39,670 nt of DNA, from positions 1 through 39,670 of the forward strand of contig CANQAL010000006.1 of the NCBI GenBank assembly GCA_947589255.1. The letters are read 5' to 3'. The notes below the pieces were generated by a model. It was not told where the DNA came from. It saw nothing but the letters and a program-made list of their open reading frames with translations, and ran no database searches. The stretch is from Candidatus Gastranaerophilales bacterium. GTDB lineage: Bacteria > Cyanobacteriota > Vampirovibrionia > Gastranaerophilales > Gastranaerophilaceae. A program made the position numbers and the translations under genes. Positions 7,080 to 18,390 of this stretch are shown here, one piece after another; position 1 is the first letter of the stretch, and each line of letters starts with the position of its first letter.

Positions 7080-7949
7080 TTACAAATCCCAGTTGTCGCT
7101 AAGTCTTGCGAATTTAAAATCTTTATAAAAATAACCTAAAATTTGAAAGGCATTATATCCTTGGGAAGCCAAATTGTTTGCACCGTGCTGGCTCATCCCG
7201 ACACCGTGACCGTTTTTTTTCATATTTGAATCAAACGAAGGAACGGATTGCAAAAAAGAACTGCCCGAATTCCAAATTTTTGTTTGACCGCCGGAACTTG
7301 CGTGATAGTATGTAGGTAAAACTTTTTTATTTTGAACAAGAACGATACCTGTTGTATCTTTAACCGCTTTAGTAGTAGTAGCTTTTTCTGCACTTGCTCC
7401 GCCATATACTTGGTCAGCGGTAGTATCAACCAAATCAAACCCTTTAGAAGCATGTTTACCTGCATTTCTTGTTGCGACGGCATAACTCCTTGCTGCTATA
7501 GCCTGAGCTTTTAAAGCTTCTTCATTCCATTTAGAAGGCATTTCAGACGGTACTACTCCTTTTAAATAGTCTTCTAACGGTACGTTATTTATAAGAGTAA
7601 GTCCGGAACCCATATTGTTAATAACAAAATCCCCTCGATACCAAGCTCTTTTGGAACATAAGTAGCCCGGTTTTTTTGTTCTGATAATTATTTGATTTGT
7701 TCCCAATCCTACATTTTTTTTATTTATAACAATGGAAAGTTCATTACCCTTGCTTTTAAATTCGTATACTTTCATCGGGGTAATTTCATATAGAACCTTG
7801 TCTTTAAATCCGTCATATATTTGAGCTGAAACTGATGATGCAATTTTAATTTCTTTAGCATCAGTTCTTAAACCTATTCTTATTGCTTCCGCTCTTGCAC
7901 TAAACAGAAATAATAATACAATAACAGGAATAATTTTTTTTATATTCAT
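7080..7949 (-). CDS. Exported SpoIID/LytB-domain protein
   Basis: A 289-residue protein with an N-terminal signal peptide (KK, then a hydrophobic core ending near ARAEA, residue 22). The SpoIID/LytB domain has NNVPLEDYLKGVVPSEMP (about 121-138), then LKAQAIAARSYA, then the ending GHGVGMSQHGANNLA (about 248-262). In SpoIID this domain cleaves denuded glycan strands of peptidoglycan; LytB-type relatives modulate amidases. Here it probably acts on the cell wall outside the inner membrane. The stretch between SVPSFD and GHGVGM is only about a dozen residues, where sporulation SpoIID proteins have roughly a hundred, so it is a compact form. It is divergent from the flagellar operon, and a broken GT9 gene follows on the same strand. 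Sporulation is not implied. Confidence 0.85.
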   Translation of the reverse strand: MNIKKIIPVIVLLFLFSARAEAIRIGLRTDAKEIKIASSVSAQIYDGFKDKVLYEITPMKVYEFKSKGNELSIVINKKNVGLGTNQIIIRTKKPGYLCSKRAWYRGDFVINNMGSGLTLINNVPLEDYLKGVVPSEMPSKWNEEALKAQAIAARSYAVATRNAGKHASKGFDLVDTTADQVYGGASAEKATTTKAVKDTTGIVLVQNKKVLPTYYHASSGGQTKIWNSGSSFLQSVPSFDSNMKKNGHGVGMSQHGANNLASQGYNAFQILGYFYKDFKFARLSDNWDL

Positions 7950-8123: not shown

Positions 8124-8813
8124 ATGATAAACGGCAGTGTACATTTTACGGAACCGGGAATAGTTCAAAATATAAGAGCCATGAGAATGCAGATGATGCT
8201 CATGGGGATTACAAATGATAATATAACAGGGTTTGATAAAGTCGGATATCAAAGAAAAATTCCCGTAGTATCTTCTTTTGCGGAATATATCGGAGAAGAT
8301 GCCATTTCAACGACAACAGATGATACTGTGGGCAGATTATTTTTAACTGAAAATCCTTTAGATGTTGCATTGGCAGAAAAAGGATATTTTCAGGTAGAGT
8401 CAAAGGATGGTATTAAACTTACCCGTGACGGCAGATTTATGATGGATAAAACAGGTGCAATACTTACAATGGACGGAGAAAAGGTGCTTACAAATATGGG
8501 AACTCCTTTAGTTCTTCCGTTTGTCCCAGATAAATTGGATGATATATCTATTGATTTAAACGGAGTTGTAAGAGTTTTAAATAATAAAACAAGAAAGTTT
8601 GAAACGGCAGGTACATTATCTGTTGTTACTCAAGATGGTGTTGCAGTTTTAGCACCTAATGTAAGGCAAAAGTATAATGAATACTCAAATGTTTCTCTGC
8701 AGACGGAATTTATGCAAGCAATGTTATATCCGAGAACATTTGAAGCAAACAGACAGTTATATCAAATACAAAATTCAAATTTACAAAGAACAATTTCATC
8801 TCTCGGAAGTTAG
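8124..8813 (+). CDS. flgF: Flagellar rod protein, FlgF-like
   Basis: A 229-residue member of the flagellar hook/basal-body rod family. The N-terminal helix ends in NITGFDKVGYQR, a variant of the usual NxANxxTxGYK motif. The central FlgE/F/G core contains LDVALAEKGYFQV and LTRDGRFMMD, and the C-terminal helix (about 190-225) is amphipathic and ends RTISSLGS. Such proteins are exported by the flagellar type III machinery and build the proximal rod. It is the first gene of the operon, 11 bases before the flgG-like gene, to which it is clearly paralogous. The FlgF assignment rests on order and the more divergent N-terminus; it could be a second FlgG-type protein. Confidence 0.75.
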   Translation: MINGSVHFTEPGIVQNIRAMRMQMMLMGITNDNITGFDKVGYQRKIPVVSSFAEYIGEDAISTTTDDTVGRLFLTENPLDVALAEKGYFQVESKDGIKLTRDGRFMMDKTGAILTMDGEKVLTNMGTPLVLPFVPDKLDDISIDLNGVVRVLNNKTRKFETAGTLSVVTQDGVAVLAPNVRQKYNEYSNVSLQTEFMQAMLYPRTFEANRQLYQIQNSNLQRTISSLGS

Positions 8814-8824
8814 AAAGGTAATCA

Positions 8825-9538
8825 ATGACAACGATACAAGGTATAATTAACAAAGGTATAATAAATGCGGAACAACAATTTGATGCATTAAGTTATGTAT
8901 CAACAAATGTTGCAAACTATAATACCAATGGTTATAAATCAGTCAGATTTGAACAAATTCTTGATGAAAACGGTTATTTGCATGGTGTAGAAAGAACGGA
9001 TTTTTCTCAAGGTGCAATTCAAACGACTTCAAGAGATTTTGATGTTGCAATAGACGGATTAGGTTATATCCCTGTAACCTCTCCAACGGGTGATGTTTCA
9101 TATACTCGTGACGGTTCTTTAAAATTGGATAAAGACGGATATCTTATTACAAATGACGGATATCTGGTTGGTGACGGAATACAGCTTCCCGTCAATTATG
9201 AAAATTTCGAAGTTAAATCAGACGGACGAGTAGAAGTATTTTCAACGGACGGTACCAAAAGAGAATATTTAGGCACAATTCCGCTTGTTAATTTTAGAAA
9301 TCCCGAAGGCTTAAAAAGGGGCGACGGAAACAAGTATTACTTAACGGCTGAATCAGGCGAGCCTGTTTTAATAAAAAATCATAATAACTTCAAACAAAGA
9401 AATCTTGAAATTACAAACGTAGATATGATAAGTGAAGTTACTCTTGTAAGCAGAATAAATGCTTCAATGCAGGCAAGTTTTAAAATAATGCAGACAGTAA
9501 ATGAAATGTATTCAAAATCGTTACAATTAAATCAATAG
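8825..9538 (+). CDS. flgG: Flagellar distal rod protein FlgG
   Basis: A 237-residue rod protein with the classic N-terminal signature NVANYNTNGYKSVR (about 29-42) and the core pattern FDVAIDGLGYIPV followed by YTRDGSLKLDKDGYL. The C-terminal segment (EITNVDMISEVTLVSRINASMQA) is the usual coiled-coil helix. FlgG forms the distal rod crossing the peptidoglycan and outer-membrane bushing. The start follows GAAAGGTAATCA, a good ribosome binding site. It is 26 residues or so shorter than enterobacterial FlgG. The paralogue upstream gives the usual pair of FlgF/FlgG-type rod proteins. Confidence 0.85.
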   Translation: MTTIQGIINKGIINAEQQFDALSYVSTNVANYNTNGYKSVRFEQILDENGYLHGVERTDFSQGAIQTTSRDFDVAIDGLGYIPVTSPTGDVSYTRDGSLKLDKDGYLITNDGYLVGDGIQLPVNYENFEVKSDGRVEVFSTDGTKREYLGTIPLVNFRNPEGLKRGDGNKYYLTAESGEPVLIKNHNNFKQRNLEITNVDMISEVTLVSRINASMQASFKIMQTVNEMYSKSLQLNQ

Positions 9539-9552
9539 TAGGAAGTGAATAA

Positions 9553-9906
9553 ATGATCAATCCTGAAAATTCAATATCTTCAACATTACATGCGTTAGAT
9601 TTGATAGCTGAAAGACATAAAGCCCTTTCAACAAATCTTGCCAATATGCATACTCCTAATTATAGGAGAAAAGACATATCATTTTCTCAGTATTTGGGCG
9701 GGGTATCAAGCCCATTGGAAACAAAACTGGCTGCAAAAATGGGACCTTCGCCGGTAAGTGTTGATGAAATGTCAGGTAAAAAGGTAGATGCTGCGGAAGA
9801 GTTATCTGAAATACAGAAAAACTCAATATTATATACAATAGCAACAAGAAGAATGACTTCTATAATAACTGAAATGAGAACGGTAATAAATATGGGTAAC
9901 GGCTAA
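9553..9906 (+). CDS. flgB: Flagellar basal-body rod protein FlgB
   Basis: A 117-residue proximal rod component. The N-terminal half has ALSTNLANMHTPNYRRKDISF, matching the FlgB/FlgC rod motif (N-x-ANxxTPxYkxxd), and the C-terminal half is a single helix ending ITEMRTVINMGNG. FlgB lies close to the MS-ring and FliE. Its stop overlaps the flgC start (TAATG at 9904-9908), implying translational coupling. The length is slightly below the usual 130-140 residues because the central loop is short. Confidence 0.88.
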   Translation: MINPENSISSTLHALDLIAERHKALSTNLANMHTPNYRRKDISFSQYLGGVSSPLETKLAAKMGPSPVSVDEMSGKKVDAAEELSEIQKNSILYTIATRRMTSIITEMRTVINMGNG

Positions 9907-10349
9907 TGGGAATATTTAGTGCAATGCAGGTAGGCTGTGACGGCCTGAAAGTACATAGTGCAAGATTAGATTTAAACTCAAAGAATATTGCAAATATTGA
10001 TACACCTAATTATGTCAGGAAAATACCTTTAGTTGTATCAACAGACAGATCATCATTTTTAAGTGTAATGAATCAAATGAGAGAGTCCGTATTCGGTGCA
10101 GGAACAATGCCTTATGCTTCAGGCAGTGTAGCGCTGTCAGGAGTAGTAGAAGATCCGACATTGGGAGAAAAAATCTATAAGCCGGGGCATCCTGATGCGG
10201 ATGAAAACGGCTATATAAGAACATCTAATGTTGATCCGTTGGTTGAAATAACGGATGCTATAATGGCGCAAAGAGCATACGAAGCAAGTTTGGCTATTAT
10301 AACAATGACAAAATCTATGGCGGATAGGGCTGCTTCAATAGGTACATAA
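9906..10349 (+). CDS. flgC: Flagellar basal-body rod protein FlgC
   Basis: A 147-residue rod protein with N-terminal SKNIANIDTPNYVRK, the central signature KPGHPDADENGYIRTSNVD and C-terminal QRAYEASLAIITMTKSM, all standard for FlgC. With FlgB, FlgF and FliE it forms the proximal rod. It is translated directly from the end of flgB (one-base overlap) and is followed 18 bases later by a lytic transglycosylase gene. Length is normal for the family. Confidence 0.95.
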   Translation: MGIFSAMQVGCDGLKVHSARLDLNSKNIANIDTPNYVRKIPLVVSTDRSSFLSVMNQMRESVFGAGTMPYASGSVALSGVVEDPTLGEKIYKPGHPDADENGYIRTSNVDPLVEITDAIMAQRAYEASLAIITMTKSMADRAASIGT

Positions 10350-10367: not shown

Positions 10368-11078
10368 ATGTTTACAGGGATAATACAAAATTTATTAAAT
10401 TCATCAGGTCAAGCCCAAGCAATTCAAAGGGCCAGACAAATCAATAATTATGTTCAAACACGGACAGTTCAGCCCCAAGAAATTGATAACGGGCTTGAGT
10501 TAAATACTTTTGAAGATGTAATGAAATCTTCATTAAATGTTCATACAAGATTTAATGTTAAAAATCCTGATAATAAGGTAAAATTCGGAGAACTAATTCA
10601 AAAAAATGTTAATGCGGTAAATTTAAGTGAACTGAATTTAAATCCGTATATTGATGAAGATACGGATGAAATTTCTCTTTCTTCTTTTCCTATAAGTGCT
10701 GATAAATCTCAAATTAAAGATATGATATCAAAAATTGCTCAAAAACACGGTATAGATGAAAAACTTGTTAATGCCGTAATAAAGCAGGAATCAGGATATA
10801 ACCCGAACGCAAAGTCATCTGCAGGTGCATTGGGATTAATGCAGTTAATGCCTGCAACAGCAAAGGCTTTAGGTGTTAATGATCCTTATAATCCCGTTCA
10901 AAATGTAGATGGCGGTGTAAGATATCTAAAAAGTATGATGCAAAAATATAACGGAAATTTAGTACTGGCACTTGCCGCTTATAATGCAGGTCCCGGGAAT
11001 GTTGATAAATATGACGGAGTTCCGCCTTTTAGGGAAACTCAAAATTACGTAAAAAATATACTTGCAAATTATTTATAG
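10368..11078 (+). CDS. Lytic transglycosylase (SLT domain) in the flagellar operon
   Basis: A 236-residue protein whose C-terminal half (about 118-236) is an SLT/LysM-type goose lysozyme-fold domain. It shows KQESGYNPNAKSSAGALG with the catalytic Glu at 141, then LMQLMPATAKALGV, then LALAAYNAGPGNVDKYDG. The enzyme cleaves the MurNAc-GlcNAc bond of peptidoglycan to make 1,6-anhydro ends. The N-terminal part is polar and has no obvious signal peptide. Position between flgC and fliE suggests it opens the wall for the rod, replacing the muramidase domain of FlgJ, and it could be exported through the flagellar pathway. Confidence 0.9.
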   Translation: MFTGIIQNLLNSSGQAQAIQRARQINNYVQTRTVQPQEIDNGLELNTFEDVMKSSLNVHTRFNVKNPDNKVKFGELIQKNVNAVNLSELNLNPYIDEDTDEISLSSFPISADKSQIKDMISKIAQKHGIDEKLVNAVIKQESGYNPNAKSSAGALGLMQLMPATAKALGVNDPYNPVQNVDGGVRYLKSMMQKYNGNLVLALAAYNAGPGNVDKYDGVPPFRETQNYVKNILANYL

Positions 11079-11090
11079 AAAGGTGAATAA

Positions 11091-11432
11091 ATGATGGAAA
11101 ACAGAATAGTTCCTAATATAAATATATTTTCAAACATAAACTCATCAATGCCGATAGATGAGTTTTCTCAAAAAGGGTTTGGAGTAAATTCGCTTAATGA
11201 CGGCTCCGGAAGTGATTTTAAGACGGTTTTGTCAGGGCTTGTAAACAAAATTAATGCTGAATCTGATAAACCGGATCAACTTTTAAACAGGCAAATGATG
11301 GGTGATAGTGAAGTTGATATCCATGATGTAACAACTGCTATTGCTAAAGCTGATTTAGGCATAACACTTGCAACTCAAATTACATCTAAGGTAGTTAATG
11401 CATATACGGCGGTAATGAACATTTCTATATAA
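11091..11432 (+). CDS. fliE: Flagellar hook-basal body protein FliE
   Basis: A 113-residue protein that joins the MS-ring to the proximal rod. The C-terminal half carries the FliE pattern: DFKTVLSGLVNKIN, then the conserved DIHDVTTAIAKADLGI and a final helix ATQITSKVVNAYTAVMNISI. The N-terminal 40 residues are variable. Two ATG codons in a row (11091, 11094) follow GAAAGGTG, so either may be used. The operon order flgB-flgC-(slt)-fliE-fliF-fliG is the common one. Confidence 0.88.
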   Translation: MMENRIVPNINIFSNINSSMPIDEFSQKGFGVNSLNDGSGSDFKTVLSGLVNKINAESDKPDQLLNRQMMGDSEVDIHDVTTAIAKADLGITLATQITSKVVNAYTAVMNISI

Positions 11433-11504: not shown

Positions 11505-13163
11505 ATGGATAAATTAAAAGAATTATTAAAAAATAAAACGATTTTATACTCCGTAATCGGCGGTGGTGTTTTATTGCTTTTTATAACAGTTTTGGGAATT
11601 ACAATATCAGTTTCAAACAGTAAGGGAACCCAAGCAAAACAAGCGGTTGAAAAAATGCAAAAAGAGCAATTTGATATAGTAACAACCGATAACCAAGGGA
11701 AAGCTATTGAAATACAAACTCTGCTTGCAAGAAACGGAATACATGCAAAAAGAAGTGTAGACGGCTCTAAAGTTACCGTTTTTTTGGAAGCCGGAAAATA
11801 CACAAATACGGATAGAGATGCAGCTCTCTTGGCTGTTGTAAAAAGCGGGTTAATTGATCAAAATGTAGGGCTTGAAATTTTTGATAAAAATGATTTTACT
11901 TCAACAAGAGAAGATAAAAGGATAAAGCTTGCCCGTGCGGTAAACGGAGAACTTTCAAGATTAATAAGACAAATGCCTAATATAGATAATGCTTCGGTAC
12001 TTATAACAATCCCTGAAAATTCAATGTTTAAGGCGGATAAAAAACCGATAAACGCAACGGTAATGCTTACAGTAGCAAGCGGAGTACGGCTTGATACTTC
12101 TGTTATAAAAGCAATAAAAAGTCTTTTAATAGGCAGTGTTGCCGATTTAACGGCTGAAAATATATCAATCACGGATTCTAACGGGAATGTATACAGCAGT
12201 CTTGTAAAATCATTGGATGATCAAATATCAAGGCTTCAGGAAAATGATGCGTATATGCAAAATAAAGTTGCAGCTCAGCTTGATATGCTCTTAGGTAAAG
12301 GAAACTACGTCGTAACGGTAAGCACATTTTTAAATCAGGTGCCTATAGAAGAAACAAGTATAAAATATGATCCTGCCGATAAAACAGCTATAACGGAACA
12401 GGTATTTAAGGAAGGACTTGGAGATAATTCAGAGGATACAAGTAAAGGCTCTGATGCTGTCAGTGTATATTTACCTAACGGACTTCAAAATTCCTCATCA
12501 TCTTCAACACAAAATAAAAGTTACCAAAGAACGGCAACAGAAACCAGTTATGGTGTTGGAAAAACTCATACATCAAAATATTATAAAACAGGTATAATAG
12601 AAAAAATATCAATAGCAGTTACAATGAATGCTGATGCGATGCCGCCGAATATGACAGAAGATGAGTTAAAGGCGCAGGTAGCATCTGCGGCATCGCCAAA
12701 GGTATCACCTGATGATGTTTCAATAGCATATGCCGAAACTATTGATCCGTATTTGGCATCGGATAGACCTGTTAATCTTCCGACCCCCGATGCATCCGGG
12801 AATCCCTGGTGGCTGGCGCTTATTTTATTGATATTAGGACTAATAACAGGTTTCGTTTTCGTTCATAAGAAATTAAAAGATTCTGCCAATGAACAATTAG
12901 AGGAATTAAATAATTTAAAAATAAAAACCGAACAGCAGGAAAAACAATTAGTTGATGTTAATTTAAAGGCTGCAGAATTGATTGAAAAGCAATCTATTCT
13001 TACTCAGGAATTATTGGAACAGCAAAAACAGCTTCAAATTGAAAAAAAAGCTGAAGAGGATATATCGTTATCTGATGTTTTAGAGGAGGTATCATCAGAT
13101 ATTGAGCAGTCTGATAGTGAAAAAACATTGAAGGAGCTTAAAAGCTGGATAGAAAAATCGTAA
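11505..13163 (+). CDS. fliF: Flagellar MS-ring protein FliF
   Basis: A 552-residue protein with one membrane span near each end (about 13-35 and 435-456), the FliF layout. Between them are the periplasmic ring-building domains, with LLARNGIHAKRS, LARAVNGELSRLIRQM and ASVLITIPENSMF in the first YscJ/FliF domain and LDMLLGKGNYVVTVSTFLN in the second. A serine-rich loop (about 325-345) precedes the last ring segment. The cytoplasmic tail is a long charged coiled coil (about 460-552) ending KELKSWIEKS, the part that docks FliG. FliF templates the whole basal body. It is followed 15 bases later by the fliG-position gene. Confidence 0.93.
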   Translation: MDKLKELLKNKTILYSVIGGGVLLLFITVLGITISVSNSKGTQAKQAVEKMQKEQFDIVTTDNQGKAIEIQTLLARNGIHAKRSVDGSKVTVFLEAGKYTNTDRDAALLAVVKSGLIDQNVGLEIFDKNDFTSTREDKRIKLARAVNGELSRLIRQMPNIDNASVLITIPENSMFKADKKPINATVMLTVASGVRLDTSVIKAIKSLLIGSVADLTAENISITDSNGNVYSSLVKSLDDQISRLQENDAYMQNKVAAQLDMLLGKGNYVVTVSTFLNQVPIEETSIKYDPADKTAITEQVFKEGLGDNSEDTSKGSDAVSVYLPNGLQNSSSSSTQNKSYQRTATETSYGVGKTHTSKYYKTGIIEKISIAVTMNADAMPPNMTEDELKAQVASAASPKVSPDDVSIAYAETIDPYLASDRPVNLPTPDASGNPWWLALILLILGLITGFVFVHKKLKDSANEQLEELNNLKIKTEQQEKQLVDVNLKAAELIEKQSILTQELLEQQKQLQIEKKAEEDISLSDVLEEVSSDIEQSDSEKTLKELKSWIEKS

Positions 13164-13178: not shown

Positions 13179-14168
13179 ATGCCTATAGAAGGGTTTGATT
13201 ATAAAACATTTGCAATTGATTTAGCAAATCAAGCAATGGAAATATTACAACAAAAGAATTCTAATGCCGCACCTGAAGGCTTAACTGATGTTGATAAAAA
13301 AACAATAATAGATACAGTCCGAAAATTTTGTTTTATGTCAGGTGAGGCATTATATAATGATACACAGTTAAAATTTAATGCCGAGCAAGCTTGTTTGGTG
13401 ACACAGTTTATAGGTGAATGGACTTTTCATAAGTCTATTGATTTGATAAAAAGCAATGTTCCCGAAAAAAATCGAGATCCGATACTTCAAGCTATAGCCG
13501 GAAATATATTTAATACTGCGAAACTTGCGATAATAAAAAATATGCCTCAAGAGGCTTTAATTAGTCTTGTAGAAGAAAAAGTAAAAAAAATCTATAAAGA
13601 TGAATTGCAAAAACTTGCAAAACAAGGTGTTCTGACGCAAGATGCTTATGATAAAGCCGTTAATACTTCTAATTTAAATGACATGGTACAAAAAAATCAG
13701 GATGAAGCGAAAATAAATAATATTCAAAATAATACGGAATCTCAGGTTGAAGATAAAAAGGTTTTAAAACTGGTATCACTTGCTATTTTATTAAAAAGGC
13801 TTCCTGCTGAAAAAGTCGAGCAAATATTGTCCGTAATGGATAAAAAGGACATTGTACATGTTCAAAACTATATGAAAATGAGTAATCTCGAAGATAAAAT
13901 TGACCATGAAGTGATAATAAAGTCATTGGAGGAAATAAAAAAGCTAATTCCGGCTCCGGAAATAATAAATGTGGGAAGATTGCTTCAGAAGCACTATAAG
14001 TTTATAAAAACAGTCCCGCCGGAAGTATTAAGTCAAACTGCCAGTGATGAGCGAGAAGCTGTCAGAGATTTTATTTTGGATAATACATTTCCCGCGGAAG
14101 AAATGTTTTCCCCATATGTAATACAGTCACTTGTTACCGCTATAGAAGAAAAAATTAATGATTATTAA
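13179..14168 (+). CDS. Divergent FliG-like motor switch protein (by position)
   Basis: A 329-residue soluble protein in the exact fliG slot (fliF-X-fliH). Its length fits FliG (about 330-340), and residues 195-260 (LVSLAILLKRLPAEKVEQIL) resemble the repeated FliG helix unit in which LLxxLPxExxxxIL is followed by an EExxxV/I turn. The well-known FliG middle-domain EHPQ motif, and the charged C-terminal torque helix with its MFxFEDL segment, are not evident; the C-terminus instead ends FPAEEMFSPYVIQSLVTAIEEKIND. An Asn/Gln-rich linker lies around 160-195. Its last 11 bases overlap the fliH start. Most likely it is a strongly diverged FliG that links the MS-ring to the C-ring; an unrelated C-ring adaptor is the alternative. 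Confidence 0.55.
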   Translation: MPIEGFDYKTFAIDLANQAMEILQQKNSNAAPEGLTDVDKKTIIDTVRKFCFMSGEALYNDTQLKFNAEQACLVTQFIGEWTFHKSIDLIKSNVPEKNRDPILQAIAGNIFNTAKLAIIKNMPQEALISLVEEKVKKIYKDELQKLAKQGVLTQDAYDKAVNTSNLNDMVQKNQDEAKINNIQNNTESQVEDKKVLKLVSLAILLKRLPAEKVEQILSVMDKKDIVHVQNYMKMSNLEDKIDHEVIIKSLEEIKKLIPAPEIINVGRLLQKHYKFIKTVPPEVLSQTASDEREAVRDFILDNTFPAEEMFSPYVIQSLVTAIEEKINDY

Positions 14169-14928
14169 GAAAAAATATACAGATATAAAAAAATTAAATG
14201 AAATAATTGAGGTTGAAGATAATTCTGAAACTGACTTAAACCTTGAAAAAGATGTTGAATCTGTTGAAGAAGAAAACACTGTTCAAGAAGAGGAAGCTGA
14301 AAAGAATGATAATAATGATTTAGATTTAACCCTTGATAATATAAAATTTGAACAAAGAGGAGAACGCAGGGAAGGAACAAGAAGAAGAGGGTACAGAAGA
14401 AGTCAGGACAGAAATCTTATATCTCGGGCGCAGGAGGAAGCCGTTGCAATAAGAGAAGCAGCAAAACAAGACGGCTTTAAAGAAGGCATTAATAAGGCGG
14501 AATCTGCTATTGCAGAATTGAAGAACAATCTTTCTGAATTTTATACATATAAAGAAGAGGTCTTTAATAAAGTATCAGAATGTATTTTAGATATTGCCGT
14601 TGAAATAGCAAAAAAAATAATTAAAAAAGAAACACAAACTGATTCTGCAGCGACTCTTGCAATAATAAAGGAAGCACTTGAAGAGGTAAATAAAACGGAA
14701 AACAAAATTACAATAAAAGTAATGCCAAAAGATGTTGAAATAGTCAGGGATAAAATACCCGAAATGATTTCTTCTGATTATTATGAAGCCCAAGTAATTG
14801 TTGTTCCCGATAATACAATAAAAGAAGGCGGTGTAATTATAGAAACATCAAACGGAATAGTAGATGCAACAATAGGAACCCAGCTTGAGATAATAAAGAA
14901 AGCATTAATTACGGAGGAGGGAAACTAA
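14158..14928 (+). CDS. fliH: Flagellar export ATPase regulator FliH
   Basis: A 256-residue protein with a long acidic N-terminus (about 15-65, rich in Glu, Asp and Asn), then an arginine-rich patch (GERREGTRRRGYRRSQDR). After that comes a coiled coil and the conserved FliH/HrpE C-terminal domain: ECILDIAVEIAKKIIKKE, then TIKVMPKDVEIV, and GGVIIETSNGIVDATIGTQL near the end. FliH forms the stalk between the FliI ATPase and the C-ring/export gate. The start overlaps the preceding gene by 11 bases, and flhA follows after 5 bases. Confidence 0.85.
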   Translation: MIIKKKYTDIKKLNEIIEVEDNSETDLNLEKDVESVEEENTVQEEEAEKNDNNDLDLTLDNIKFEQRGERREGTRRRGYRRSQDRNLISRAQEEAVAIREAAKQDGFKEGINKAESAIAELKNNLSEFYTYKEEVFNKVSECILDIAVEIAKKIIKKETQTDSAATLAIIKEALEEVNKTENKITIKVMPKDVEIVRDKIPEMISSDYYEAQVIVVPDNTIKEGGVIIETSNGIVDATIGTQLEIIKKALITEEGN

Positions 14929-14933
14929 ACTAA

Positions 14934-17036
14934 ATGGCACAGCCGCAAGGGTTAAAACCTTCCATATTCAGTGAAATAGGATTGGCAATATTTGTAATAT
15001 TGTTGGTTGTACTGTTGATATGTGAACTTCCGCCTGTTGTTGTAAACTTTGCCATAAGTTTTAACATAACTCTTGGTATATTGTTATTGATGATTTCATT
15101 GTATATACAAAGACCGTTAGAATTGGCTGCATTTCCTTCTATTATATTAATAGGAACAATGTTCCGTCTTGTATTATCTATTGCATCAACAAGGCTGATA
15201 TTAGCAAAAGGCGATGCGGGTGAAGTTATTGATGCATTCGGAAACTTCGTTACGGGCGGAAACCTGATTGTAGGATTTGTAATATTTATTATTATAACTG
15301 TTGTTCAGTTTATGGTTATTACAAAAGGTTCTGAACGTATTGCAGAAGTTGCGGCAAGGTTTGCCTTAGATGCTATGCCGGGTAAACAAATGACTATTGA
15401 TGCCGATTTTAATGCGGGTTTAATTTCTCCTGATGAAGCCGTAAAGAGAAGAGAAGATTTGCAGAGAGAATCAAATCTGTATGGTTCAATGGATGGTGCG
15501 ATGAAGTTTGTAAAAGGTGATACGATGGCGGGTATCATCATTGTAATAATTAATATTGTAGGCGGTTTATGTATCGGTATATTGATGCAGGGGATGCCTG
15601 CAGGGGAAGCCGTTCAAAAATATACGGTATTAACAGTCGGTGACGGACTTGCTTCTCAGCTTCCTTCCTTATTAATGGCAGTTGCTGCCGGTATCGTTAT
15701 GACAAGGTCTACTGCAGCAGGCGGCTCTTTAGGCGGTGATTTGGCGGGACAAATTTTAAGTAAACCTTCAAGCTTAATATTTACAGTTGTATTCCTTATC
15801 TTAATTGCCTTAACAAGCTTTGTCACAGGGCTTCCTTGGTATACATTTACTCTTTATGCCGCGGTAATACTTGTTGCATTCCTTATTGTTTCCGTAAATA
15901 AAGATGTACAGGCTCAGCTTGGACAATTAGATGCGGTTAAGAAAAGTATGAGCGATTTAACAAACCCTAACAGAATGTATGAAAGACTTGGGGTTGATGT
16001 ATTAAATCTACAAGTCGGTACGGGATTATTGGAAATCGCCGACCCCGAACAAGACGGTTTATTGCTTCCTAAAATCGCTGCTTTGCGTCAAAGAGTTACG
16101 GATGAACTCGGTTATATTATTCCTAATATCAGAATAATGGATTCATCTGCCATTGGAGCAAATGAATATATGATTTCAGTGCGCGGAAATACCGTTGCAA
16201 CAGGTACCGTTTATCCGAAAAAGAGTATGGTTATTGCCGACCAATGGGATGCAACGGGCATGGAAGTTCCAAAAGATGCCATAATCGGTATTGACCCGAC
16301 ATTCCAAACACAGGCTTATTGGATGGATACGGAATTTTTGAAAAAACAAAAAGCGGTTGTTGCTGTTGATTCTGTTGATGTTATTATAACTCACCTTCAA
16401 GATTGCGTAAGGAAATATGTAGATGAAATTATGACAAAGACAGACGTCTTAAAACTTATGGAACTTGTTAAGAGCCAAGACCCGACACTTGTTAACGATT
16501 TGGTTCCGACAATTATTTCCACAAGCGATTTAAGAAAGATTTTTGTAAACTTAATTAGAGAAAAAGTTTCAATAAAAGATATTATATATATATTTGAGCG
16601 ATTATGCGATTATGCAAGATTTTCAAAAGAGCCTGATATATTGTCTGAAAGATTAAGGGCTGCACTCGGCAGACAAATATGTCTTGCTAATTGCAATCAG
16701 GATAAAGTAATGTATGCGCTTACATTATCTCCCGAATGGGAAAAAACACTTGACGACAGCTGCCAAAGAACGGAGCTTGGCACAATGTTTTTGTTAAATC
16801 CTATGCAGGTTCAGGAATTAATTGAATCATCCGCATCAACATTAATAAGAGCGCATCAGAGTATAAATGTACAACCTGTTATTTTATGTTCTCCAAGAAT
16901 CAGATTGCCGTTATATCAGCTTCTTGAAAGACATATTCCTACAATAGTTGTTATTTCGTATTCTGAATTAATAACGGATATTAGAGTAGAAGCCGTTGAT
17001 ACAATAGGTGAAGCGGCAAATTATAATTTTGAGTAA
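14934..17036 (+). CDS. flhA: Flagellar type III export gate protein FlhA
   Basis: A 700-residue export-gate protein. About eight membrane spans fill residues 15-330, and a cytoplasmic domain (about 345-700) binds chaperone-substrate complexes. The FHIPEP-family signature GSERIAEVAARFALDAMPG begins at residue 132, followed by IDADFNAGLISPDEA and the conserved MDGAMKFVKGD at 186-196. Length is normal. It lies between fliH and fliI, so export-gate, stalk and ATPase genes are contiguous. A GGAGGAGGG sequence inside the end of fliH is the likely ribosome binding site, although the spacing is wide. Confidence 0.97.
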   Translation: MAQPQGLKPSIFSEIGLAIFVILLVVLLICELPPVVVNFAISFNITLGILLLMISLYIQRPLELAAFPSIILIGTMFRLVLSIASTRLILAKGDAGEVIDAFGNFVTGGNLIVGFVIFIIITVVQFMVITKGSERIAEVAARFALDAMPGKQMTIDADFNAGLISPDEAVKRREDLQRESNLYGSMDGAMKFVKGDTMAGIIIVIINIVGGLCIGILMQGMPAGEAVQKYTVLTVGDGLASQLPSLLMAVAAGIVMTRSTAAGGSLGGDLAGQILSKPSSLIFTVVFLILIALTSFVTGLPWYTFTLYAAVILVAFLIVSVNKDVQAQLGQLDAVKKSMSDLTNPNRMYERLGVDVLNLQVGTGLLEIADPEQDGLLLPKIAALRQRVTDELGYIIPNIRIMDSSAIGANEYMISVRGNTVATGTVYPKKSMVIADQWDATGMEVPKDAIIGIDPTFQTQAYWMDTEFLKKQKAVVAVDSVDVIITHLQDCVRKYVDEIMTKTDVLKLMELVKSQDPTLVNDLVPTIISTSDLRKIFVNLIREKVSIKDIIYIFERLCDYARFSKEPDILSERLRAALGRQICLANCNQDKVMYALTLSPEWEKTLDDSCQRTELGTMFLLNPMQVQELIESSASTLIRAHQSINVQPVILCSPRIRLPLYQLLERHIPTIVVISYSELITDIRVEAVDTIGEAANYNFE

Positions 17037-17040
17037 GGTT

Positions 17041-18390
17041 ATGCTTGAACAATCAACTGAAAAATCAATAGAATATGTAAAAAAACAAGCCTTTGAAATA
17101 ATTAATTCAACAAAATTATATTCATATAAGGGCAGTGTATCAAAGCTTTTAGGTCTAACGGTAGAAGTAAAATTGCCGGGGCTGAAAATAGGTGATTTAT
17201 GCTTTATTGAAAACTATCAAGGCGAAAAAAAACCTGCCGAAGTTGTTGCATTTAAAGGTGAAAATGCACAGTTACTTTTATTATATGATGGTGCGGGTAT
17301 AGGGCAGGGCAGTTTAGTTACAACAACAGGACAGGCAATAAGTATTCCCGTGGGTGATTTTTTACTTGGCAGATTAATAAGTCCTTTAGGTGAACCTATA
17401 GACGGTAAACCCATGGATACAAGGGGCGCAGAGTGGACAAACATTGATAATCCTCCGCCCGATGCATTTGATAGACCTATTATTACGCAAATGTTTTCAA
17501 CAGGTGTAAGAGCAATCGATTCAATGCTAACATTAGGGGCGGGGCAGAGAATGGGATTATTTGCAGGCTCAGGGGTTGGTAAAAGTACTATGCTCGGGAT
17601 GATTGCCAGAAACTCTGATGCTGATGTCAATGTAGTAGCATTAATTGGAGAACGAGGCAGAGAAGTTAAAGAGTTTATTGAAAATTCGCTTGGAGAAGAA
17701 GGTATGCGAAAATCAGTCATAGTATGTTCAACGGGTGATCAGCCTCCTTTAATCAGACAAAAGTGCCTTCTGTCTGCCACTGCAGTTTGCGAATATTTTA
17801 GGGATAAAGGTAAAAAAGTTTTCTTAATGACTGATACCGTCACGAGGTGTGCTATGGCAGGCAGAGAGGTCGGGCTGTCGATTGGTGAACCTCCTACAAT
17901 TAAAGGTTATCCGCCTTCAATATTCTCTTGGCTTCAAAGAGTTCTGGAACGAAGCGGAAACAGCCCAAGAGGCTCTATTACAGCTTTATATACCGTTCTT
18001 ATGGAAGGTGATGATATTAATGACCCTGTTGTTGATACCGTAAGAGGTATTGTTGACGGACATATTTTCTTATCCAGAAAAATTGCCGAGATGAATCATT
18101 ACCCTGCGATTGATGTTTTAGGCAGTATTAGCCGTTTATTTACCGAAATTGTTACGGAAGAACACAAGCAGGCTGCTTATAAAATGCGCCAGTTAATGGC
18201 TTTATACCGTGAAAATAAAGATTTAATTGATGTCGGGATGTATAATGCAGGGTCAAATCATAAGCTTGATATAGCTATTGAACTTATGCCTCAAATTAAT
18301 GCATTTCTTCAACAGCGGACATCTGATAGTGTTACTATGGAAAATACAATTTCAACTTTAATTTCCATGATGAAGGATGTTGATATATAA
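17041..18390 (+). CDS. fliI: Flagellum-specific ATP synthase FliI
   Basis: An F1-beta-like ATPase that energises flagellar protein export, about 450 residues. Walker A is GSGVGKST at 176-183, then GERGREVKEF, Walker B VFLMTD (D265), and the export-ATPase stretch GYPPSIFSWLQRVLERSG. The N-terminal barrel (about 25-95) has GLTVEVKLPGL. I take ATG 17041, just after the flhA stop, as the start. A GTG in frame at 17008 would add 11 residues and overlap flhA by 29 bases. This is the last flagellar gene here; its stop meets the stop of the convergent minus-strand cluster with one base between them, and no hairpin terminator is visible. Confidence 0.96.
   Translation: MLEQSTEKSIEYVKKQAFEIINSTKLYSYKGSVSKLLGLTVEVKLPGLKIGDLCFIENYQGEKKPAEVVAFKGENAQLLLLYDGAGIGQGSLVTTTGQAISIPVGDFLLGRLISPLGEPIDGKPMDTRGAEWTNIDNPPPDAFDRPIITQMFSTGVRAIDSMLTLGAGQRMGLFAGSGVGKSTMLGMIARNSDADVNVVALIGERGREVKEFIENSLGEEGMRKSVIVCSTGDQPPLIRQKCLLSATAVCEYFRDKGKKVFLMTDTVTRCAMAGREVGLSIGEPPTIKGYPPSIFSWLQRVLERSGNSPRGSITALYTVLMEGDDINDPVVDTVRGIVDGHIFLSRKIAEMNHYPAIDVLGSISRLFTEIVTEEHKQAAYKMRQLMALYRENKDLIDVGMYNAGSNHKLDIAIELMPQINAFLQQRTSDSVTMENTISTLISMMKDVDI

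Follow-up and report, generated by a model that had tools for sequence, protein, structure and literature searches.

What machine is encoded by a flagellar-type gene cluster whose fliG position holds a gene that does not read as fliG? The question is raised by a window of 39,670 nucleotides, the whole stretch of DNA analysed here, from a Candidatus Gastranaerophilales (gut Cyanobacteriota) MAG of 166 contigs and 95% completeness. Its gene run is flgF-flgG-flgB-flgC-SLT-fliE-fliF-X-fliH-flhA-fliI (Table 1), and a SpoIID-domain gene (7080-7949, minus strand) lies divergently upstream. X, the gene of interest, encodes 329 residues from an ATG start. It begins 16 nt downstream of the fliF stop, and its last 11 nt overlap the beginning of fliH, which places it in the FliG slot, and its neighbours match FliF, FliH, FlhA, FliI and FliE in Pfam. 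X is a real gene, since orthologues are found in 54 of the 58 genomes searched and dN/dS is near 0.1. An earlier note on this DNA had remarked on a highly divergent protein in the fliG position and suggested a motor with a reworked rotor-stator interface. The first point stands. As for the machine, we propose that X is probably the cytoplasmic MS-ring adaptor of a motorless, rod-bearing, flagellum-derived T3SS, separate from the flagellum.

Table 1. Features of the X locus, in window coordinates.
Feature	Position	Strand	Basis
flgF (rod)	8124..8813	+	Pfam, NCBIfam
flgG (rod)	8825..9538	+	Pfam, NCBIfam
flgB-like (rod)	9553..9906	+	Position, length, weak phmmer match; no Pfam match
flgC (rod)	9906..10349	+	Pfam, NCBIfam; TIGR01395 95 bits
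SLT lytic transglycosylase, putative peptidoglycan opening for rod	10368..11078	+	SLT 2e-34; kept in cluster, f9 included
fliE	11091..11432	+	FliE 1e-16
fliF (MS-ring), divergent	11505..13163	+	YscJ_FliF 6e-34, FliF_C 3e-13; TIGR00206 120 bits, under cut-off
FliF C-terminal tail ...LKSWIEKS, proposed docking site for X core	13137..13160	+	Tail conservation
X, two-part candidate ring adaptor without torque domain	13179..14168	+	AF2 mean pLDDT 87.4, all helical; dN/dS about 0.1
X N-terminal helical domain, about 190 aa, motif QFIGEWTFHKSIDLI	13179..13745	+	Invariant E80 W81 F83 H84 K85 D88
X C-terminal core, about 140 aa, FliG-superfamily-like	13746..14165	+	Pfam recurrence, VIA rows, f9 orthologues
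FliG-like helical unit, X residues about 196-258	13764..13952	+	VIA structural alignment of core model
fliH (ATPase stator)	14158..14928	+	FliH 6e-25
flhA (export gate)	14934..17036	+	FHIPEP 4e-214; own clade in tree; dN/dS 0.02
fliI (export ATPase)	17008..18390	+	Pfam, NCBIfam

By sequence, X falls below every FliG family cut-off. It matches none of FliG_N, FliG_M and FliG_C in Pfam even at E = 1, has no match to the NCBIfam fliG model, and a phmmer search of the PDB returned nothing, FliG included. Its sole Pfam match is MgtE_N, at 0.02 over residues 201-232, the stretch that the earlier note had singled out as a FliG-like helix unit. A pattern emerges across the family. When the C-terminal cores of 50 members were scanned singly against Pfam at E<=0.1, MgtE_N was matched by 34, FliG_M by 26 and FliG_N by 21, the next most frequent family by at most 6; as a control, the N-domains of the same 50 proteins gave no recurrent family (at most 5). 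FliG_C was matched by only 2 of the 50 cores, with a best E of 0.011. The best member scanned singly reached 22.7 bits with FliG_M, against a curated cut-off of 25, and no member clears a curated FliG threshold. The profile-profile search against FliG that had been suggested as a check gave no real match between full-length X and the order's canonical FliG (probability 1.4%); the FliG alignment was thin, with 5 similar sequences, so this null result is compatible with kinship between the two. A profile of the core drew PrgK and FliG fragments from the PDB at E 0.006-5, too weak for use. The earlier note had seen neither an EHPQ motif nor a torque helix, and this absence is not divergence within those domains, because no FliG_C-like domain is detectable in X at all.

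To a structure prediction, X presents itself as a well-modelled, all-helical protein, for full-length X on a 56-row alignment as for the core alone (pLDDT 86.5). In a Foldseek search of the whole PDB with the core model, FliG accounted for 7 of the 17 matches, the FliG matches lying at E > 1 and none of any kind below 0.001. With VIA, the first seven rows were all FliG, at Z 4.9-6.4, followed by unrelated rows at 4.6 and then 3.1; a Z of 5-6 on a helical domain is middling by VIA's own warning. Core residues 7-69 superposed on residues 5-67 of FliG in 8wo5_B5 (Z 6.4, rmsd 3.6 over 63), and the core also aligned with FliG_M of 3usw/4fq0 (Z 6.2, about 3.3 Å over 62 residues) and with the T. maritima FliFc:FliGn complex 5tdy (84 residues, Z 6.3). 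The predicted fold of the core is suggestive of FliG; full-length X retrieved only generic helical proteins in Foldseek. The evidence for a FliG-like core is weak but consistent, and we consider the core likely to be FliG-derived because these individually weak lines and the gene position are taken together.

The remainder of X, its N-terminal domain of about 190 residues, belongs to no known family when 50 members are scanned against Pfam. It carries the motif EW.FHK..D, invariant in alignment A3. Its VIA matches (rotary ATPases, designed repeats, GPCRs) resemble generic helix packing and were set aside. The two parts of X also occur apart. The N-domain is missing from the short X orthologues (L238-L242) of f9, a family in another order of the same class. 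There the slot shows the same order flgF-flgG-..-flgB-flgC-SLT-fliE-fliF-X-fliH, and X measures 126-150 residues, the core alone, matching the core at E 4e-5 to 0.05 in addition to the synteny. Conversely, the N-domain occurs as a stand-alone, membrane-anchored protein of about 229 residues with C-terminal transmembrane helices (L157-L172, for example L164:8998-9690), which adjoins a protein of about 735 residues of no named family and lies distant from T3SS genes. Two genomes, G045 and G040, carry a tandem additional copy of the X N-domain (187 aa) between fliF and X (L031:6492-7055, L032:7843-8406), and G047 has a second X paralogue of 374 residues outside its T3SS cluster (L050:6782-7906).

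If X served a flagellar motor that rotates through a reworked rotor-stator interface at FliG, as the earlier note had suggested, other motor genes should accompany it. FliG_C (PF01706) has no match in the genome of the window, in a search that recovers FliG in four control genomes; none of the 35 genomes of the genus has it, against 20 of the 22 from the rest of the order. X itself is present in its own genome, in 33 of the 34 others of the genus and in 20 of the 22 same-order genomes outside it, giving the 54 of 58. The second fliG that the earlier note had advised looking for is accordingly absent by FliG_C search from this genome, and canonical fliG turns up in order-mates outside the genus. 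In sister families, these canonical FliGs are about 340 residues long, with an ENPQ motif and an MFVFEDI...LDDRSIQ torque helix, and are encoded by a separate gene on another contig, so that the X locus is a second system there and not a modified motor. G047, from a different family, independently has the X cluster, with FliG_C, flagellin and FlgI not found; together with the pattern in the genus, this indicates a second system that persists once the flagellum is gone.

The other components of a motile flagellum gave a similar picture. FlgI (P-ring) is found in none of the 35 genus genomes, the present one included. Flagellin has no match in this genome and is found in 2 of the 35; one of the two matches is a fragment, and the genome that carries it is 9% contaminated. 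A genus member without FliG or P-ring (G003:C32:21421-21831) has a frame of 348 aa that matches Flagellin_N well (110 bits), which could be a substrate of the X system or contamination. MotA_ExbB gives one match per genus genome, and the one in the present genome is ExbB-like, with a TonB-like gene on one side and two ExbD-like genes on the other (L085; named from their sequences). FliMN_C has no match in the genome, possibly through an assembly gap. The search for motA and fliM/fliN elsewhere in the genome, also proposed earlier, thus yielded only the ExbB-like gene, with a divergent SpoA protein in relatives within the genus. Flg_bbr_C has three matches, as many as the window has rod genes carrying this domain, leaving no extra hook-type gene. 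In family f4, an extra FlgE/F/G-type gene lies 3' of fliI in the X cluster (L251:8407-9240, L252:8645-9619), a candidate hook-like or rod-cap protein. Because the MAG is fragmented and the SpoA protein was not found in it, we rest these absences on agreement over the 35 genus genomes. The gene order fliF-X-fliH and the FliG-like unit in X would suit a rotating motor; with no stator, C-ring, filament, hook or P-ring gene found in the genome, a sole MotA match that is ExbB-like, and an X that is devoid of a detectable torque domain, we regard such a motor as highly improbable.

The lineage of the export gate FlhA sets the X system apart from the order's flagellum. In a maximum-likelihood tree of 54 rows (LG+C20+F+G4 PMSF), 22 X-system and 4 f9 sequences form one clade with 100/100 support on a long stem. 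Canonical Gastranaerophilales FlhA forms a separate clade, also 100/100, which joins the remaining flagella from the phylum, and four SctV sequences fall outside the X clade. The separation of X-clade FlhA from the flagellar FlhA of the order is clear; its placement among flagella is less certain, given several long outgroup branches. Nearly every f1 genome, G000 included, seemingly has a further FHIPEP match, which is weaker (about 1e-48 where a value is shown). The earlier description of the rest of the operon as conventional is right in part: FlhA lies outside the order's flagellar lineage, and FliF (120 vs 129.75 bits), FlhA (677 vs 772) and likewise FliI score under the NCBIfam flagellar equivalog cut-offs.

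Retention and selection bear on whether the cluster is a remnant, that is, whether motility was lost in the genus and what is left of the gene set, a decaying fliG included, survives by chance. Of 107 genomes sampled from the family, 105 have a full-length FlhA, and the two exceptions, G120 and G281, also lack full-length X and keep N-domain proteins only. Between the window and near relatives, dN/dS is 0.09-0.11 for X, about 0.06 for FliF and 0.02 for FlhA, so the genes are under purifying selection; such low values, and a locus kept by almost every genome, argue against decay. From GTDB genomes scanned with an X profile, 80 loci were kept, with labels Gastranaerophilales, Cyanobacteria/Melainabacteria or older. 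Partial flagellar sets in this order have been read as non-functional, after complete flagella were found in 3 of 9 Gastranaerophilales genomes and subsets in others (Soo et al. 2014, PMC4040986). A remnant is thus the published reading, and a genus without filament, P-ring and motor genes in which hook genes were not found speaks for it. A remnant is nevertheless very unlikely: 20 order-mates outside the genus carry the X locus, most of them together with canonical flagellar genes; the FlhA of the X locus lies outside the order's flagellar lineage; dN/dS is 0.02-0.1 with near-universal retention in the family; and X is not a decayed FliG, because it has gained a conserved N-domain.

A separate, maintained T3SS is therefore the reading that we carry forward, and its parts can be listed. 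The rod proteins and export apparatus are present, with rod genes in the window, flhB elsewhere in the same genome and FliPQR in genus relatives. The window retains flgB, flgC and fliE; flgB is assigned with reserve, from a weak phmmer match (30 bits) to the gene that occupies the flgB place in a canonical flagellar locus (L089). Close relatives in the genus (L073-L076, L083, L084) carry a second cluster that encodes a SpoA protein, a FliO-like protein, FliP, FliQ and FliR. The genus SpoA protein is divergent, about 400 residues long, and scores 65 bits with FliN and 52 bits with SctQ. It was not found in the present assembly, which we take for a MAG gap because the two closest relatives (80% identity in X) both have it.

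These parts also allow a different assignment, in which X is an SctK-type adaptor and the whole system a true member of the injectisome lineage of NF-T3SS. The slot order is shared with sctJ-sctK-sctL, SctL-type models fit FliH slightly better (86 vs 76 bits), and the SpoA protein matches SctQ too. Against this, FlhA, FliF, FliP and FliR all prefer flagellar over NF-T3SS models (for FlhA, 677 bits with TIGR01398 vs 597 with TIGR01399), and FlhA does not group with SctV in the tree. The rod genes and FliE, which have no NF-T3SS homologue (PMC3459982), are kept, and X matches no SctK family in Pfam or NCBIfam. On balance, membership of the injectisome lineage is unlikely.

For the motorless, rod-bearing system that we favour, the FliF tail suggests how X might be attached. 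Across Gastranaerophilales, the FliF proteins of X loci nearly all end in LKxWIE or a close variant, with LQIWLE in f9; among 13 diverse members the W is invariant and K, I and E are at least 90% conserved. A profile of this tail found only chance matches in the PDB, with no sequence match to solved FliF tails. Separately, in another class of the phylum, FliF of a flagellar gene set ends in a FliG_M domain (PF14841, 6e-13 to 1e-8), a natural FliF-FliG_M fusion (L248:6999-8933, L249:11990-13828, L246:11611-13539). By analogy with the docking of FliG_N on FliF, the X core, probably an armadillo-type unit related to FliG N/M, would most likely dock on the LKxWIE tail of its own FliF. The N-terminal helical domain would take the outer position, in place of the torque domain, and probably connect the MS ring with a membrane partner or with the sorting ring formed by SpoA (FliN/SctQ-like). 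A machine so assembled, from FliF-X-SpoA, FliHI and FlhAB-FliPQR, would export FliE and the rod proteins, the lytic transglycosylase opening the cell wall for the rod. Its product may be a short rod that serves secretion, presumably through the rod itself, or contact, and not swimming.

We further suggest, more tentatively, that this may be a third ancient flagellar-type export lineage, neither flagellum nor injectisome, which builds a rod without hook, filament or motor, exports substrates, uses a torque-less FliG with a new N-domain as its adaptor, and occurs in almost every gut member of Gastranaerophilales and in at least one further order of the class. The motor-gene searches covered genomes of Gastranaerophilales. 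In the open-access literature we found no paper on such a system or on a T3SS in Gastranaerophilales. Partial flagellar sets of Gastranaerophilales from human and animal guts, hitherto taken for incomplete or lost flagella, may form an apparatus dedicated to secretion or contact. If the core is indeed derived from FliG, the FliG adaptor unit would have outlived its torque domain, and in two sizes. The system also resembles the step required by models of injectisome origin, in which motor and filament are lost and the rod and export machine are kept; it is found here in sequenced genomes, alongside canonical flagellar genes in sister families and under strong purifying selection.

X and its system can be compared with several known ones. 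Like FliG, X lies between fliF and fliH, and its core seems close to the N/M helical unit of FliG in fold and, weakly, in sequence; unlike FliG, it has no detectable FliG_C torque domain or EHPQ motif, stays under every FliG cut-off and bears a new N-terminal domain of about 190 residues. SctK, the injectisome pod adaptor, shares the slot in the gene order and presumably the job of joining ring to sorting platform, but X has a FliG-like core in place of any SctK family match, and could be another kind of protein in the SctK role. Abby and Rocha (2012) have reconstructed a motorless stage that lies between the flagellum and the injectisome, with living examples in Myxococcales that lack FlgBC, FliE and FliG (PMC3459982). 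These secretin-less NF-T3SS are flagellum-derived and non-motile, with motor and filament absent, as is proposed for the X system; the X system differs in retaining rod genes, FliE and a putatively FliG-derived adaptor, and its FlhA falls on the flagellar side. The filament-less basal bodies of Buchnera, noted in the same work as a proposed export device (PMC3459982), offer the likeness of an export machine with a rod only, for which secretion has been proposed. There, however, an ordinary flagellum has been reduced, whereas the X system is a separate lineage that stands beside canonical flagellar genes in sister families.
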